Program-made: the position numbers and the translations under genes
Shown: positions 23,142 to 32,649 of the stretch, in pieces
Position numbering within the stretch: position 1 is the first letter of the stretch
How the letters are laid out: the number at the start of each line of letters is the position of its first letter
Notes under the pieces: model-generated
Databases searched by the model: none
What the model was told of the DNA's origin: nothing
Seen by the model: only the letters and a program-made list of their open reading frames with translations
Assembly: GCF_003426775.1 (NCBI RefSeq)
Contig: NZ_QJUG01000054.1
Span: 1 to 42,453, forward strand
Direction of reading: 5' to 3'
Length of the DNA: 42,453 bases
DNA from: Allorhizocola rhizosphaerae
Lineage (GTDB): Bacteria; Actinomycetota; Actinomycetes; Mycobacteriales; Micromonosporaceae

Positions 23142-23935
23142 TGTTGCTCACCTGGCTTTATGTGCCCGGCGACCGGCCCGAGCGGTTCGCCAAGGCCGTC
23201 GCGTCCGGTGCCGACGCGGTGATACTCGATCTCGAAGACGGTGTGCCCTCGGGGCGCAAGGCCTACGCCCGGGATGCGGTGCGCGAATTCCTGTCCGACG
23301 CTTGCGACGTGCCGGCCTTCGTGCGGATCAACACCCTCGACGACCTGTTCACCGCGCCAGGCGTGGCAGGGTGGCGGCTGCCCAAGGTCGAGTCGCGGGC
23401 GCAGGTGCTCGCGGCCGCCGCCCTCACCGACGCGCCGCTGCACTGCCTGATCGAGTCGGCGTTCGGGCTGGAGGTGGTGCTCGACATCGCGCGGGTCGCG
23501 GGCGTCGGTGCGATCGGGCTTGGGGAAGAAGACTTGCGCTCAGACCTCGGCCTCGTGGGCGACGAAGGTCTGCTGTGGGCGCGCAGCCGCATCGTCGTGG
23601 CGGCCCGCGCGGCGGGCCTGCCTCCGCCCGCTATGTCCGTCTACAGTGATCTGTCCGATCTCGACGGTCTGCGGGCAAGCTGTGCGCAGGGGCGGCGGCA
23701 CGGATTCCTCGGCCGGACGGCATTGCACCCCAAGCAACTCCCGGCCATCGTCGACGGCTTCCGCCCACCGGCCGAGGAGGTGAGCCGTGCGCAGGCTCTG
23801 CTCGCATCGGTGACGGAAGACTCCGGCGCACTGGTCCTGCCCGACGGCCGCTTCGCCGACCGTGCCCTCGTCGCCGCCGCGCAGCGGGTGGTCGAGCTGG
23901 ACGCCCACTGCCAAGCGGCGGTCCGCGCGGGTTGA
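23141..23935 (+). CDS. HpcH/HpaI aldolase / citrate lyase beta (CitE-like) protein
   Basis: A 264-residue class II aldolase-fold enzyme acting on acyl-CoA thioesters. The N-terminal TWLYVPGDRPERFAKAVASG and DAVILDLEDGVP hold the Mg-binding acidic residue region. VKVESRAQ-like PKVESRAQVLA and LIESAFGLEVV provide the other metal-ligand Glu, and GRTALHPKQL is a hallmark of CitE-like proteins. Likely reactions are cleavage of malyl-, citramalyl- or beta-methylmalyl-CoA-type substrates. A stand-alone CitE without citrate lyase alpha/gamma supports the CoA-thioester role. It is the last gene of the lacI-2 operon. Its 3' end is tandemly duplicated downstream. Confidence 0.9.
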   Translation: MLLTWLYVPGDRPERFAKAVASGADAVILDLEDGVPSGRKAYARDAVREFLSDACDVPAFVRINTLDDLFTAPGVAGWRLPKVESRAQVLAAAALTDAPLHCLIESAFGLEVVLDIARVAGVGAIGLGEEDLRSDLGLVGDEGLLWARSRIVVAARAAGLPPPAMSVYSDLSDLDGLRASCAQGRRHGFLGRTALHPKQLPAIVDGFRPPAEEVSRAQALLASVTEDSGALVLPDGRFADRALVAAAQRVVELDAHCQAAVRAG

Positions 23936-24045
23936 CCGTGTTTGGCTGATGCGGCGCAGCGGGTGGTCGAGGTGGGTGCCCCCCGCCTGGCGGCGGTCCG
24001 CGCGGGTTGACCGTGTTTGGCTGATGCGGCGTAGCGGGTGGGTGC
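23879..24045 (+). repeat. 75-bp tandem repeat of the citE-like 3' end
   Basis: Copies start at 23879, 23954 and 24029 (the third is partial). Each has GCGCAGCGGGTGG (GCGTAGCGGGTGG in the third), and the first two continue to GCGGTCCGCGCGGGTTGACC and GTGTTTGGCTGATG. Only the first copy is coding: its TGA ends the protein. The rest lies between citE-like and the regulator gene. Confidence 0.9.
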
Positions 24046-24073
24046 GCCGGGGGTCTACTGCCGAGCTCGCCGG

Positions 24074-24089
24074 GTTCGCCTTGAGCGAA
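24074..24089. promoter_or_regulatory. ClgR-box-like site upstream of the regulator gene
   Basis: GTTCGC-CTTGA-GCGAA matches the published Streptomyces ClgR motif as I recall it (GTTCGC-5N-GCG), and the TTCGC/GCGAA arms are perfectly inverted. It lies about 70 bp before the ATG of the ClgR/PopR-like gene, suggesting autoregulation or control by a genuine ClgR elsewhere. Confidence 0.6.
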
Positions 24090-24159
24090 AGGGCTGCCCC
24101 TGCGTGCCGGTTAACCGCTATACAGGACGAAGCTAAGTCGTGCGCGATGAGAGGACATC

Positions 24160-24591
24160 ATGGCGGATCCGGTGATACCGGCCGCCCCCGAGTGGGGCAG
24201 GGGTCGGCGCACGCGAGCATTGTTGCGCTCGGTGCTGGGCGAGGCGCTGCGCCAGGAGCGGCTTGAGCAGGGGCGCACACTGGCCGACGTGGCGATGGCC
24301 GCGAGGATTTCGCTGCCCTACCTGTCCGAGGTGGAGCGTGGGCGCAAGGAGGTCTCGTCGGAGGTCCTGGCCGCGCTCTGCGACGCGTTGGGCATCGACC
24401 TGTCCGATCTGCTGGTCGCCGTCGTCCTTCACCTCAACGGTGAAAGCGTGGCCGGCGAGAGCATTGTGGCATCGCTGGCCGTGGGCCGCCGCGTGGCCGT
24501 TGACGGGCTGGGCACGGCGGCCGGCAACGGTCCCGGCGTGGTGGCGCCGCCGATGCGCCGCCGCGGCGACGCGTATGCGTTGGCTGCCTGA
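24160..24591 (+). CDS. ClgR/PopR-like XRE regulator with ssrA-like C-terminus
   Basis: A 143-residue regulator. The Cro/CI helix-turn-helix at about residues 34-85 ([20 protein letters not shown] and [20 protein letters not shown]) closely resembles ClgR and PopR, the actinobacterial activators of clp genes. The C-terminus ends AYALAA, identical in its last five residues (YALAA) to the ssrA degradation tag. Streptomyces ClgR and PopR are ClpP substrates through their terminal alanines (established). It converges on a clpP pair and has a ClgR-type box upstream. ATG 24160 follows GAGAGGA at good spacing. The variable middle (about 95-130) is Gly/Ala-rich. PopR rather than housekeeping ClgR is favoured by position and by the operator at 26119. 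Confidence 0.88.
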
Positions 24592-24687
24592 GCCGGCCGG
24601 TCGTGTGTAGCGGTGTGGTGGTGCTGCCGCGGGGACGCGGGTGTGTGGCTGTTTGAGCCGGCTGGCCGTGTGTGGCGGTGTCGTGAA
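24557..24687 (+). repeat. 65-bp tandem duplication of the regulator's 3' end
   Basis: Copy 1 (24557-24622) covers the last codons and stop of the ClgR/PopR-like gene. Copy 2 (24623-24687) repeats it with substitutions: CCGCGG, TGGCT, TGAGCCGG, CCG/T GTGTGT and GCGGTGT are shared at an offset of 65-66. Copy 2 is non-coding. Confidence 0.75.
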
Positions 24688-24721
24688 GGTTGCCGCATCA
24701 AAAGGGTCGGATGAACTGTCG

Positions 24722-24772
24722 CGCGGGCTACATCTCTGCACCGGTAACTCGGCGCCGAGATGCAGCCCCGCG
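24722..24772. terminator. hairpin between convergent regulator and clpP genes
   Basis: GGGCTACATCTC (24725-24736) pairs with GAGATGCAGCCC (24757-24768) with one mismatch around a 20-nt loop, and the stem extends by GCG/CGC beyond a bulge. It lies 25 nt past the clpP stop (minus strand) and past the regulator stop (plus strand), so it may terminate both. A short T-run (CTTTTG) follows on the minus side. Confidence 0.6.
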
Positions 24773-24784
24773 AAGAACTTCAAC

Positions 24785-24806
24785 GGCCGCCGGGTGTCAG
24801 GCGGCC
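24785..24806. terminator. second hairpin, overlapping the clpP stop
   Basis: GGCCGCC (24785-24791) and GGCGGCC (24800-24806) form a perfect 7-bp stem with an 8-nt loop across the stop codon of the downstream clpP gene. It may protect the mRNA 3' end or assist termination. Confidence 0.4.
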
Positions 24807-25441
24807 GCCAGTTGTGCCGACCTCGGGGTGTTGAGTTTCGTGGTGGTGATGATCTGGTCGGCGAGGCCGTAGGCGACGGCTTCGGGGGCGGTGAAGGTGC
24901 GTTGGCGGTCGATGTCGTGGTGGATTTTGTCCATAGGGTGGCCGGTGTGCTGGCTCAGGATCTCGTCCATCTCGGCTCGCATGCGGGCCACGTCTTTGGC
25001 CCGGATCGCCAGGTCGGGAAGTGTGCCCTGGGCGACGTTGAACCAACCATCCTCCGTAGAAGGCTGATGCAGGACCACTTTGGCGTGCCGGAGCATGGAC
25101 CGCTTGCCGGGCGTGCCCGCCGCCAGCAGCACGGCGGCCGCGCTTGAGGCTTGGCCCACGCAGAAGGTGGCGATGTCCGGGCGGACGTACTGCATCGTGT
25201 CATAGATGGCCGTCAGCGCACTGTAGGAGCCGCCGGGGGAGTTGATGTAGAAGCCGATTTCGAGCTCCGCGCTCTCGGCCTGCAGGTGCAGCAATTGTGC
25301 GATGACGACATTGGCAACGCCGTCGTCGATCTCCGTACCAAGAAAGACGATTCTTTCCGACAGTAAGCGCGAGTAGATGTCGTAGGCTCGCTCGCCCCGC
25401 GACGTCCTTTCTATGACCGTCGGTATCGTGTACTGGCCCAT
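24797..25441 (-). CDS. clpP: ClpP-type serine protease subunit (ClpP4-like)
   Basis: A 214-residue caseinolytic protease subunit that assembles into a self-compartmentalised double ring working with Clp ATPases. The catalytic triad is complete: Ser100 in [10 protein letters not shown], His125 in VVLHQPST, Asp176 in [26 protein letters not shown] is the conserved substrate-channel segment. I chose ATG 25441 because the family N-terminus starts there; it lies 2 nt after the upstream clpP stop, so the two form an operon. The C-terminus ends QLAAA, an alanine-rich tail. Pairing and regulator context suggest the inducible ClpP3/ClpP4 pair of streptomycetes rather than ClpP1/P2, which usually neighbour tig and clpX. 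Confidence 0.93.
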
Positions 25442-25443
25442 TG

Positions 25444-26037
25444 TCAGATCCCCACTTTCCGCTTGGCGACGTGCGGTCGCACGTCGTCGACCCGCTCCAC
25501 GATGTGGTCGACGATCCCGTATTCGAGCGCCTCCCGTGCGCTGAACCAGCGGTCGCGCTTGCCGTCGTTCTTGATGGTTTCCACGGTCTGCCCGGTGTGC
25601 TGTGCCGTCAGTGCGCTCATCAGGTTGCCGAGCCGCTCCAGCTGCCCGGCGTAGATTTCGACATCGGCGGCCGTCCCGCCCAGCCCGGCCGAACCCTGGT
25701 GCATCAGGATCTGCGCGTGCGGCAGCGCGAACCGCTTGCCCGCCGTCCCCGCGCACAGCAGGAACTGCCCCATGCTGCCCGCCAATCCCATCGCCACCGT
25801 GATGACGTCGTTCGGGATCAGCCGCATGGCGTCGTAGATCGCCAGCCCGGCGAGCACGGAACCGCCGCGCGAGTTGATGTAAAGGCCGATGTCGCGGCGC
25901 GGGTCCTCCGCCGACAGCAGCAACAGTTGGGTGCAGATGCGGTTGGCGATCTCGTCCTCGACATCGGAGCCCAGGACGATGATGCGCTCGTGGAGCAGGC
26001 GTGTGGCTAACTGATCATCGAGCGTTCCCGCGTGCAT
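25444..26037 (-). CDS. clpP: ClpP-type serine protease subunit (ClpP3-like)
   Basis: A 197-residue ClpP subunit, the first gene of the clpP pair. The triad is intact: Ser88 in [11 protein letters not shown], His113 in ILMHQGSA, Asp158 in KNDGKRDRW. The substrate-channel strand is [17 protein letters not shown], with Arg in place of the usual Pro before GG, a difference also seen in divergent ClpP paralogues. The start ATG 26037 has TAGGAG about 8 nt upstream. Its promoter region holds a 19-bp palindrome at 26119-26137. The two different subunits probably form a mixed tetradecamer (known for actinobacterial ClpP pairs). Confidence 0.93.
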
Positions 26038-26113
26038 GGCGATCTCCTATTCCGTCGGTGATTCGGCCTCAACGGTCGTGCACGCGGCGACCCGATCCAA
26101 GGCAATCTGCTGA

Positions 26114-26140
26114 CAGCTACTCTGCTCTCAGCAGAGTCAA
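26114..26140 (-). promoter_or_regulatory. clpP promoter with embedded PopR-box-like palindrome
   Basis: ACTCTGCT-CTC-AGCAGAGT (26119-26137) has perfect 8-bp arms and a 3-nt centre. It matches the PopR box as I recall it (TCTGCC-3N-GGCAGA) except for a symmetrical C/G to T/A change. On the minus strand TTGACT (26140-26135) and TAGCTG (26119-26114) could be -35/-10 with a short 15-bp spacer, so the palindrome lies between them. A degenerate second half, TCTGCTGACAGC, is at 26106-26117. Confidence 0.65.
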
Positions 26141-26163
26141 GGTCGCGTGTTAGCCTTCGTGCC

Positions 26164-26301
26164 ATGGCAACGGACAAGAAGATCGGTTACCTGGCCAACG
26201 AGCAGCGGGTCGCCGCCTACAAGGCGCAGACCGGGCGCAAGGAGCTCACACCCAGGCAGGCGCGGCGCGTGGCGAAGAAAGCGCGTCAGGGCAAGGCATA
26301 A
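26164..26301 (+). CDS. 45-residue basic protein divergent from clpP
   Basis: A small Lys/Arg-rich protein beginning MATDKKIGYLANEQRVAAYK and ending in a strongly basic helix (PRQARRVAKKARQGKA), with the motif QTGRKELTPRQARR. I do not recognise a characterised function; nucleic-acid or ribosome binding would fit the charge. TAGCCT at 26151-26156 with a 7-nt spacer before ATG 26164 suggests a leaderless transcript. The upstream -35 zone falls within the clpP palindrome, so a ClgR/PopR-type factor could control it together with the clpP pair. Era starts 26 nt downstream. Codon usage (G/C in third positions) supports a real gene. Confidence 0.7.
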   Translation: MATDKKIGYLANEQRVAAYKAQTGRKELTPRQARRVAKKARQGKA

Positions 26302-26327
26302 CGGCCCGGTCGAGATAACCTCCAGGG

Positions 26328-27203
26328 ATGTATCGCGCCGGTTTCGCCTGTTTCGTTGGCCGCCCCAACGCGGGCAAATCGACCCTGACCAACGCCATCG
26401 TCGGTCAGAAGATCGCGATTACCTCGAGCAAGCCCCAAACCACGCGGCACATCATTCGCGGGGTGCTGCACCGCCCCGAGGCGCAGCTGGTGCTCGTCGA
26501 CACGCCCGGTCTGCACCGCCCGCGCACGCTGCTCGGCGAGCGGCTCAACGATCTGGTCCGCTCCACGTGGAGCGAGGTCGACGTGATCGGGTTGTGCATT
26601 CCCGCGAATGAGCCGGTGGGCAAGGGCGACACGTTCATCGCCTCCGAGATCGCCGCGCTGAAGGCCAAGCTCGTCGCGGTCGTGACCAAGACCGACCTGG
26701 TGGGCAAGAAGGAGCTGACCGAGCAGCTGATGGCGGTCAGCCGGCTGGGCGATTTCGCCGACGTCGTTCCCGTCAGCGCCGTCACCGCCGACCAGCTCGA
26801 TGTGCTGACCGACGTGATGATCAGCCATCTGCCCGAGTCTCCTCAGCTGTACCCGGACAGCATGCTCACCGACGAGCCGGAGCATGTGCTGATCGCGGAG
26901 ATGATCCGCGAGGCGGCGCTCGAAGGTGTGCGTGACGAGTTGCCGCACTCGATAGCGGTACTGGTCGAGGAAATCATTCCTGCCAACGGTTTGACGAAGG
27001 TCTACGCGGACATCTACGTCGAGCGGCAGTCGCAGAAGGCGATCGTCATCGGGGCCCGCGCGACCCGTCTGAAAGAGGTCGGCACCCGGGCCCGGGCGCA
27101 GATCGAGGAGCTGCTCGGCACGAAGGTCTACCTCGACCTGCACGTCCGGGTGGCCAAGGACTGGCAGCGCGATCCGAAGCAGTTACGCAAACTAGGCTTC
27201 TAG
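26328..27203 (+). CDS. era: GTPase Era
   Basis: Essential Ras-like GTPase that binds 16S rRNA and promotes 30S assembly. It has 291 residues. G1 is GRPNAGKST (11-19), the G2 region carries TSSKPQTTRH, G3 is DTPGLHRP (from about 58) and G4 is TKTD (120-123). The C-terminal KH domain carries ERQSQKAIVIG and ends VRVAKDWQRDPKQLRKLGF, as in canonical Era. The start is ATG 26328. TAACCT (26316-26321) is exactly 6 nt upstream, which implies a leaderless transcript and independence from the distant phoH operon. In most actinobacteria era follows the CDA-like gene directly; here about 23 kb intervenes. Confidence 0.97.
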   Translation: MYRAGFACFVGRPNAGKSTLTNAIVGQKIAITSSKPQTTRHIIRGVLHRPEAQLVLVDTPGLHRPRTLLGERLNDLVRSTWSEVDVIGLCIPANEPVGKGDTFIASEIAALKAKLVAVVTKTDLVGKKELTEQLMAVSRLGDFADVVPVSAVTADQLDVLTDVMISHLPESPQLYPDSMLTDEPEHVLIAEMIREAALEGVRDELPHSIAVLVEEIIPANGLTKVYADIYVERQSQKAIVIGARATRLKEVGTRARAQIEELLGTKVYLDLHVRVAKDWQRDPKQLRKLGF

Positions 27204-31946: not shown

Positions 31947-32524
31947 ACCAGCGCTCGGCTCCGCCCGGCCGGGAACCGGTCCAGCACACCGGTGGCGGCC
32001 AGCGCGCGCGCCAGTAACGGCGACCCGAACCCGGCGATCACGATCGCGCTGACCACCGTCGCCACGATGAGCGGGAGCCGGAATGTGGCCCAGTCGGCCG
32101 TGGCCCACCAGACGAACGTGTCCCACAGCGCCGCGCCGATCCCGCTCGCCGCCGCGGCGAGCAGCGCCACCGGCATCGTCCACACGCGATAGAGCACGAT
32201 CAGGAACACCAGCTCGGCCCCGATGCCCTGCACGAGCCCCTGCCAGATGACGCTGCCGCCCCACGCGTTGCCCAGGGCAACGGAGATGATGGCCGCGAGC
32301 CACTCGCAGTACAGGGCGGCGCCCGGCTTGCGGATGATCCACGCCCCGAGCACGGCCGGCACCAGCCACACCCCGTAGATCAGGCCCTGGGCGGGCGGGT
32401 AGAACGTGAACGCGGGTGTGGTCGCGAGCCACAGCTGGTTCCAGGCCCAGAAGACGACGCCGAACGCGACGGCGATCACGGATGCGACGACTATATCGAC
32501 GGTCCGCCACGCGAACCTGTTCAT
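31943..32524 (-). CDS. ykoE: ECF transporter S component YkoE (thiamine/HMP)
   Basis: A 193-residue integral membrane substrate-binding subunit with five or six helices. The aromatic-rich FWAWNQLWLATTPAF and GLIYGVWLVPAVLGAWIIRKPGAA match the YkoE family (ABC_cobalt/DUF), which imports hydroxymethylpyrimidine or thiamine. The preceding TPP riboswitch supports this strongly. ATG 32524 follows TCAGGA (32538-32533) at good spacing. This ribosome-binding site directly abuts the aptamer's 3' end, so TPP probably blocks translation initiation. It is the first gene of ykoE-ykoD-ykoC. Confidence 0.93.
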   Translation of the reverse strand: MNRFAWRTVDIVVASVIAVAFGVVFWAWNQLWLATTPAFTFYPPAQGLIYGVWLVPAVLGAWIIRKPGAALYCEWLAAIISVALGNAWGGSVIWQGLVQGIGAELVFLIVLYRVWTMPVALLAAAASGIGAALWDTFVWWATADWATFRLPLIVATVVSAIVIAGFGSPLLARALAATGVLDRFPAGRSRALV

Positions 32525-32536
32525 AGCACTACTCCT

Positions 32537-32620
32537 GACTCCCTACGCTGGCATTACCCAGTTCAGGTCCGAGGGTCTGCACATGCACTCTCAGCGTCCG
32601 TTTGGACGCTCCCCTGTCGT
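32537..32620 (-). ncRNA. TPP riboswitch (THI element)
   Basis: On the minus strand the conserved THI-box pieces occur in order: CAGGGGAGCG, then CTGAGAG, ACCCTCGGACCTGAACTGG, GTAATGCCAGCGTAGGGA. CTGAGA and ACCTGAWCTGGRTAATRCCAGCGTAGGGA are diagnostic of the thiamine pyrophosphate aptamer. The 3' end lies about 13 nt before the ykoE ATG and next to its Shine-Dalgarno, implying translational repression by TPP. Confidence 0.96.
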
Positions 32621-32649
32621 GGACTAGAGACTACACCGGCCGGAGCAGC

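Follow-up and report, generated by a model that had tools for sequence, protein, structure and literature searches.

A PopR-ClpP3P4 backup protease module in Allorhizocola rhizosphaerae with a likely ClgR input to popR

The closest described system to the one considered here is the PopR regulator and the clpP3 clpP4 peptidase genes of Streptomyces lividans, reportedly the subject of studies by Viala, Rapoport and Mazodier in 2000 and by Viala and Mazodier in 2002. In actinobacteria the ClgR regulon comprises clpP1P2, clpC and lon. The available part of PMC9775585 quotes the ClgR motif as GTTCGC-5N-GCG, gives the S. lividans PopR site a contiguous 15+15 tandem layout and reports a role for the terminal alanines in the degradation of PopR in Streptomyces. 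According to the available text of PMC9765437, ClpXP1P2 degrades both PopR and ClgR, and both this paper and the accessible part of PMC12607617 describe expression of ClpP3P4 upon failure of ClpP1P2. Here we examine a locus of this kind in a stretch of 42,453 nucleotides from Allorhizocola rhizosphaerae (Micromonosporaceae; contig NZ_QJUG01000054.1), referred to hereafter as the window, in which a regulator gene faces a pair of clpP genes. The genome assembly spans 8.8 Mb in 493 contigs and is 96.66% complete.

We read the locus as a PopR-ClpP3P4 backup protease module in which ClgR would also act on popR, forming a coherent feed-forward loop, and we give this reading a probability of roughly 0.78. 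A preliminary description of the DNA had proposed a ClpP3/P4-like backup under a PopR-like regulator; every feature it named was recovered in place (Table 1), and the regulator tree, the ClpP tree, a second clpP pair, a unique operator and the AA tail of the regulator all point, at the level of sequence, to the same core. For comparison, 101 PopR-type loci were annotated: besides the window itself, 20 come from stretches of relatives and 80 are the best loci of a longer scan; this sample was picked by likeness to the window and is not a census. In 49 of the 101, popR lies beside clpP3 and/or clpP4, and all 49 (one genome being counted twice, as L024 and as L062) are convergent, the window among them, where the two adjacent clpP genes both lie on the minus strand. 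These clpP3P4-type loci include Micromonosporaceae, Streptosporangiaceae, Jiangellaceae, Kineococcus, Isoptericola, one Streptomyces and three Acidimicrobiia-type records. A single ClpP1-like gene accompanies popR in 34 loci, and 18 have no clpP within the stretch.

The NCBIfam ClgR model scored the window regulator at 93.8 bits, below its cut-off of 170, so that the protein falls outside that equivalog. In a tree of 131 helix-turn-helix cores, whose 82 columns are few and leave the inner forks weak, the ClgRs of this genome and its relatives split from the PopR-type rows with a Shimodaira-Hasegawa-like approximate likelihood ratio test (SH-aLRT) support of 98, and the window regulator fell on the PopR side together with Streptomyces. 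Its nearest row was L018 (genome G017), and by E-value Catellatospora and Longispora supplied the nearest named PopRs, with 60-67% over the best segment. The genome's own ClgR gene lies apart, on contig C480. On this phylogenetic evidence the window regulator is PopR and not ClgR, which bears out the earlier assignment.

Both peptidases could be assigned as well. In a tree of 87 ClpPs, the first gene of the window pair fell in a 32-row clade (SH-aLRT 100) holding all 31 P3 rows, Streptomyces ClpP3 included, plus L073, which carries the BLAST label P1 despite its position; the second fell in the P4 clade (88). P3 joined P1 and P4 joined P2, each with a support of 100. The catalytic serine, histidine and aspartate were found in both proteins, as read from alignments with solved chains. 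Genome-wide there are exactly four PF00574 matches, which make up two pairs, the second being the tig-clpP1-clpP2-clpX locus on contig C219; the main clpP pair presupposed by a backup function is present. The window ClpP4 ends in QLAAA (24797-24814), and the ClpP4s of two near relatives lack a terminal AA (VSA in L018, PAG in L019). In all three trees a Planomonospora module (L060; Streptosporangiaceae) nests with the Micromonosporaceae group of the window (87, 98 and 98), a hint of horizontal transfer.

The window PopR ends in GDAYALAA. YALAA also forms the last five residues of the mycobacterial ssrA tag, and the preliminary description had singled the tail out as a near-perfect ssrA mimic. 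The transfer-messenger RNA (tmRNA) tag of this genome, ANTTRSQLALAA, ends in LALAA, so that the match with the PopR tail is cut to four residues, ALAA, and a five-residue mimic was rejected. A C-terminal AA was found in 49/49 clpP3P4-type PopRs, with LAA in 43 of them, and in 18/20 PopRs of Streptomyces, 10/34 of the single-clpP type and 10/18 of those without clpP in the stretch. What stands of the claim is the AA tail and its conservation; its exceptional character was overstated, LAA being the rule. As judged from these comparisons, the tail fits a conserved degron rather than a special mimic.

The ClgR input is suggested by a box, GTTCGCCTTGAGCGAA, that begins 86 bases upstream of the popR start. 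We trained a ClgR matrix on the 45 boxes that precede clpC or clpP1, mostly of Micromonosporaceae, keeping popR regions outside the training, and set thresholds at 1% and 5% of the null (7.7 at 1%). The window box scored 20.6, the highest among 47 non-Streptomyces clpP3P4-type popR upstream regions (a set with a different anchor, with L110 counted under Streptomyces and the duplicate L024 dropped), compared to -9.5 with a PopR-site matrix. Of these regions 25/47 passed at 1% and 31/47 at 5%, and the box of the nearest relative, L018, scored 14.0 and passed at 1%. A simpler count gave the same picture: a box with an arm score of at least 9/10 was present in 31/44 clpP3P4-type popR upstream regions, nine loci without LLR anchor being left out, whereas 50 shuffles yielded 1.84 on average and 5 at most. 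Single-clpP-type regions had no such box (0/34), and by the matrix 0/34 of them passed at 1% and 3/34 at 5%. At 1%, 4/14 popR loci without a nearby clpP and 2/11 clgR upstream regions also passed. The corresponding rates for clpC (26/30) and clpP1 (24/27; 7/35 entries without anchor left out and L017, a copy of L206, dropped) are high partly by construction, both sets having trained the matrix. The genome itself carries an exact ClgR box before clpC and a 9/10 match before clpP1. The box noted earlier before popR is present and agrees with the motif that precedes clpC and clpP1 in relatives; it is likely a ClgR operator, with popR a likely ClgR target in this genome, and popR thus appears to be placed under the regulator of the main protease.

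Several observations weigh against this reading. Within the window, GTTCGC-N5-GCG with at most one mismatch occurs 48 times, five times exactly, where 48.96 sites are expected. None of 23 Streptomyces popR upstream regions passed the ClgR matrix at 1%; at 5%, 8/23 passed where about one was expected, so that weak ClgR sites may exist in that genus as well. Among the 47 regions 16 fell below even the 5% threshold, including L038-L041 (Catellatospora and Longispora), and their neighbour L019 passed at 5% only; in L019 and L038-L041 the place of the popR box is taken by a hybrid PopR/ClgR half-site. The ClgR of this genome (L236:1-238) ends in VVGV, without an AA tail. The Streptomyces model, as given in the available parts of the published accounts, has no ClgR input to popR. 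The accessible portions of PMC9765437, PMC12607617 and PMC9775585 do not mention popR among the targets of ClgR, which is no proof of the link being unpublished.

The hybrid sites raise the alternative that has survived best, although we consider it rather unlikely: ClgR and PopR would share operators, as heterodimers or as competing homodimers, and the popR and clpP3 promoters would drift among full ClgR, full PopR and hybrid half-sites. Nine copies of the hybrid TCTGCY-N3-RGCGAA, a PopR half joined to a ClgR half, were counted across 68 popR upstream regions (in L019, in three Catellatospora, in Longispora and in four Streptomyces), compared to none in 100 shuffles; the 51 clpP3 upstream regions also held nine (seven in Streptomyces, the others in L040 and L023), where shuffles gave a mean of 0.02 and a maximum of 1. 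The hybrids occur in the Catellatospora group, in Streptomyces and in one other genome (G022), and the S. lividans site quoted in the available part of PMC9775585 includes TCTGCC-3N-GGCGAA. Against this, there is no hybrid half-site in the window, the related sequences are not independent and GCGAA may be a tolerated PopR half-site. Taken further, half-sites of a single family might serve both sister activators, that of the main and that of the backup Clp protease, and the two might come together on hybrid operators, perhaps as heterodimers; both Clp systems would then belong to one circuit, a view we regard as doubtful; under this tentative scheme the window would display a fully ClgR-type site at popR and a fully PopR-type site at clpP3.

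Somewhat less probable again is that the box is a PopR autoregulatory site or a chance GC-rich dyad, in which case popR would lie outside the ClgR regulon and be controlled only post-translationally, as in Streptomyces. The chance frequency of GTTCGC-N5-GCG in the window speaks for it, as do the 28 exact TWCGC-N5-GCGAA places in the genome; when the surroundings of 20 of these were inspected, 19 lay within some open reading frame (ORF) of at least 100 aa, the clpC box among them. The hybrid or PopR-leaning sites before popR in the Catellatospora group and in some Streptomyces point the same way. The matrix scores of the window box (20.6 compared to -9.5), the 25/47 regions that pass the 1% null and the excess over shuffles argue the opposite. 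By the window statistics the box could be due to chance, but the evidence from relatives rules against it, and the position of the box together with its conservation across relatives makes it meaningful despite its chance frequency.

If ClgR does act on popR, its own tail bears on how the circuit would sense proteolysis. The ClgRs of G016, G017 and G020 (L161, L162 and L166) end in GV and those of six other relatives end in AA; a presumed ClpP degron of ClgR seems, by these termini, to have been lost in part of the family. If AA is what ClpP reads on ClgR, the ClgR tier in this part of the family may not sense ClpP; in that case PopR would be the only sensor, and ClgR would set how much of it is supplied.

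Upstream of the clpP3 start by 82 bases begins the 19-mer palindrome ACTCTGCTCTCAGCAGAGT (26119-26137), with perfect 8-base arms around a 3-base centre (16/19 positions pair). As first described, it contains TCTGCT-N3-AGCAGA, a sequence with one exact match in the whole genome; allowing up to one mismatch gives 10 places in total, compared to 23 for a reversed control pattern. A second, imperfect 15-mer (26106-26120), absent from the preliminary description, abuts the palindrome, so that the tandem operator is present in the form TCTGCY-N3-RGCAGA as a contiguous pair of 15-mers. The perfect copy lies farther from clpP3; its proximal partner, with one half degenerate, is next to CTTGG. A TTGG or TTGT starts 5 bases past the operator at 26/39 non-Streptomyces sites and at 0/11 Streptomyces sites, counting sites with at least 11/12 positions (the 39 sites lie at 36 loci). 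A scan of 23900-26400 for consensus sigma-70 sequences found no promoter. At the sixth position the 39 sites had T/A on both sides in 24 cases, C/G in 7, mixed bases in 6 and another base in 2, and the 11 Streptomyces sites had C/G in 8 and mixed bases in 3. The T form is the usual one outside Streptomyces. One and the same 15-residue recognition stretch faces CC in L043 and TT in L044, L047 and L052. The earlier proposal of a co-evolved new specificity started from the symmetrical difference between the window operator and the Streptomyces form TCTGCC-N3-GGCAGA; it would mean that the changed operator is recognised by the window PopR but not by that of Streptomyces. In its favour, most Streptomyces sites have C/G and none has T/A on both sides. 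It is nevertheless unsupported and very improbable because the T form is in the majority outside Streptomyces, mixed sites occur and identical recognition stretches face both forms, and we have rejected it.

Under the preferred reading, a feed-forward module with ClgR input, PopR would be made and destroyed continuously, the latter by Clp with ClpP1P2 acting through the C-terminal alanines. Failure or overload of ClpP1P2 would let PopR survive, bind the tandem 15-mers by the promoter and switch on ClpP3P4. Transcription of popR would in addition be raised by ClgR, which activates clpP1P2 and clpC, so that the backup would need two conditions at once: a ClgR signal, which increases the synthesis of PopR, and failing proteolysis, which spares it. 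In such a coherent feed-forward arrangement, ClpP activity would gate the second tier.

Clp is an antibiotic target. The available text of PMC12607617 describes ClpP3P4 as insensitive to acyldepsipeptide (ADEP) in Streptomyces, and the way in which the backup is armed would therefore bear on the resistance of producers to Clp-directed drugs. Our sample extends the PopR-ClpP3P4 backup well beyond Streptomyces, to Micromonosporaceae, Streptosporangiaceae, Jiangellaceae, Kineococcus, Isoptericola and three Acidimicrobiia-type records, and adds a likely ClgR transcriptional input that does not occur in full form in the Streptomyces sequences.

Table 1. Features of the popR-clpP3-clpP4 locus, in positions of the window.
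Feature	Position	Strand	Remarks
ClgR-type box GTTCGCCTTGAGCGAAA upstream of popR	24074..24090	+	10/10 arm positions; matrix score 20.6
popR	24160..24591	+	143 aa; XRE/HTH_31 activator (Pfam HTH_31 match); PopR clade
Codons of PopR C-terminal ALAA, presumed ClpP degron	24577..24588	+	AA end in 49/49; own tmRNA tag ends LALAA
clpP4-like peptidase gene	24797..25441	-	214 aa; PF00574; P4 clade (SH-aLRT 88), with P2 (100); triad residues
clpP3-like peptidase gene, leading the pair	25444..26037	-	197 aa; PF00574; P3 clade with Streptomyces ClpP3 (SH-aLRT 100); triad residues
CTTGG, possible -35 element of clpP3 beside operator	26097..26101	-	follows proximal 15-mer; TTGG/TTGT at this offset at 26/39 non-Streptomyces sites
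Proximal PopR site with a degenerate half (TCTGCTGACAGCTAC on + strand)	26106..26120	-	contiguous 15+15 layout
Distal PopR operator, perfect TCTGCT-N3-AGCAGA	26121..26135	-	12/12 positions; arms reach 26119-26137

Beyond the palindrome, starting 27 bases past it and divergent from clpP3, lies a 45-aa basic ORF (26164-26301; MATDKKIGYLANEQ...) that may share the operator region with clpP3. It was rejected as a part of the module: it has no Pfam match, weak matches were found in 2/36 other genomes and none among the other loci. At three genes of this genome the 3' end, stop codon included, is tandemly repeated just downstream: a citrate-lyase-like gene (23879-24041; 75-base unit, 2.2 copies), popR (24560-24685; 65-base unit, 1.9 copies) and, elsewhere in the genome, clgR (L236:200-402; 39-base unit, 5.2 copies). 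Such repetition of gene 3' ends is possibly a habit of this genome. A thiamine pyrophosphate (TPP) riboswitch lies at 32523-32625 on the minus strand.

Among known systems, the locus shares a PopR-clade regulator with the single-ClpP1-like type (mainly Micromonospora; L030-L033, L035, L036 and many of L074-L117), in most of which TCTGCC-type 15-mers lie before clpP. Those loci differ in having one clpP, in their order (popR first and in the same direction in 29/34, clpP first in 3, divergent in 2), in the ClgR box (0/34 at 1%) and in the AA tail (10/34 only). The link to the ClgR regulon is the popR box, which matches both the motif that relatives carry before clpC and clpP1 and the GTTCGC-5N-GCG quoted in the available part of PMC9775585; the differences are that popR is not among the ClgR targets named in the accessible text of the papers cited and that the ClgR of this genome ends in VVGV without AA. 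As in the PopR system of S. lividans, a PopR-clade activator ending in AA stands beside a clpP3-clpP4 pair with a contiguous 15+15 tandem operator (PMC9775585, in its available part), and clpP1P2 lies separately in the genome. Unlike Streptomyces, the locus has T rather than C at position 6 of the half-sites, CTTGG after the operator (none at 11 Streptomyces sites) and a ClgR-type box before popR (0/23 at 1% in Streptomyces). The operator and the tail are ordinary for such a module, and a probable ClgR input sets it apart from Streptomyces.

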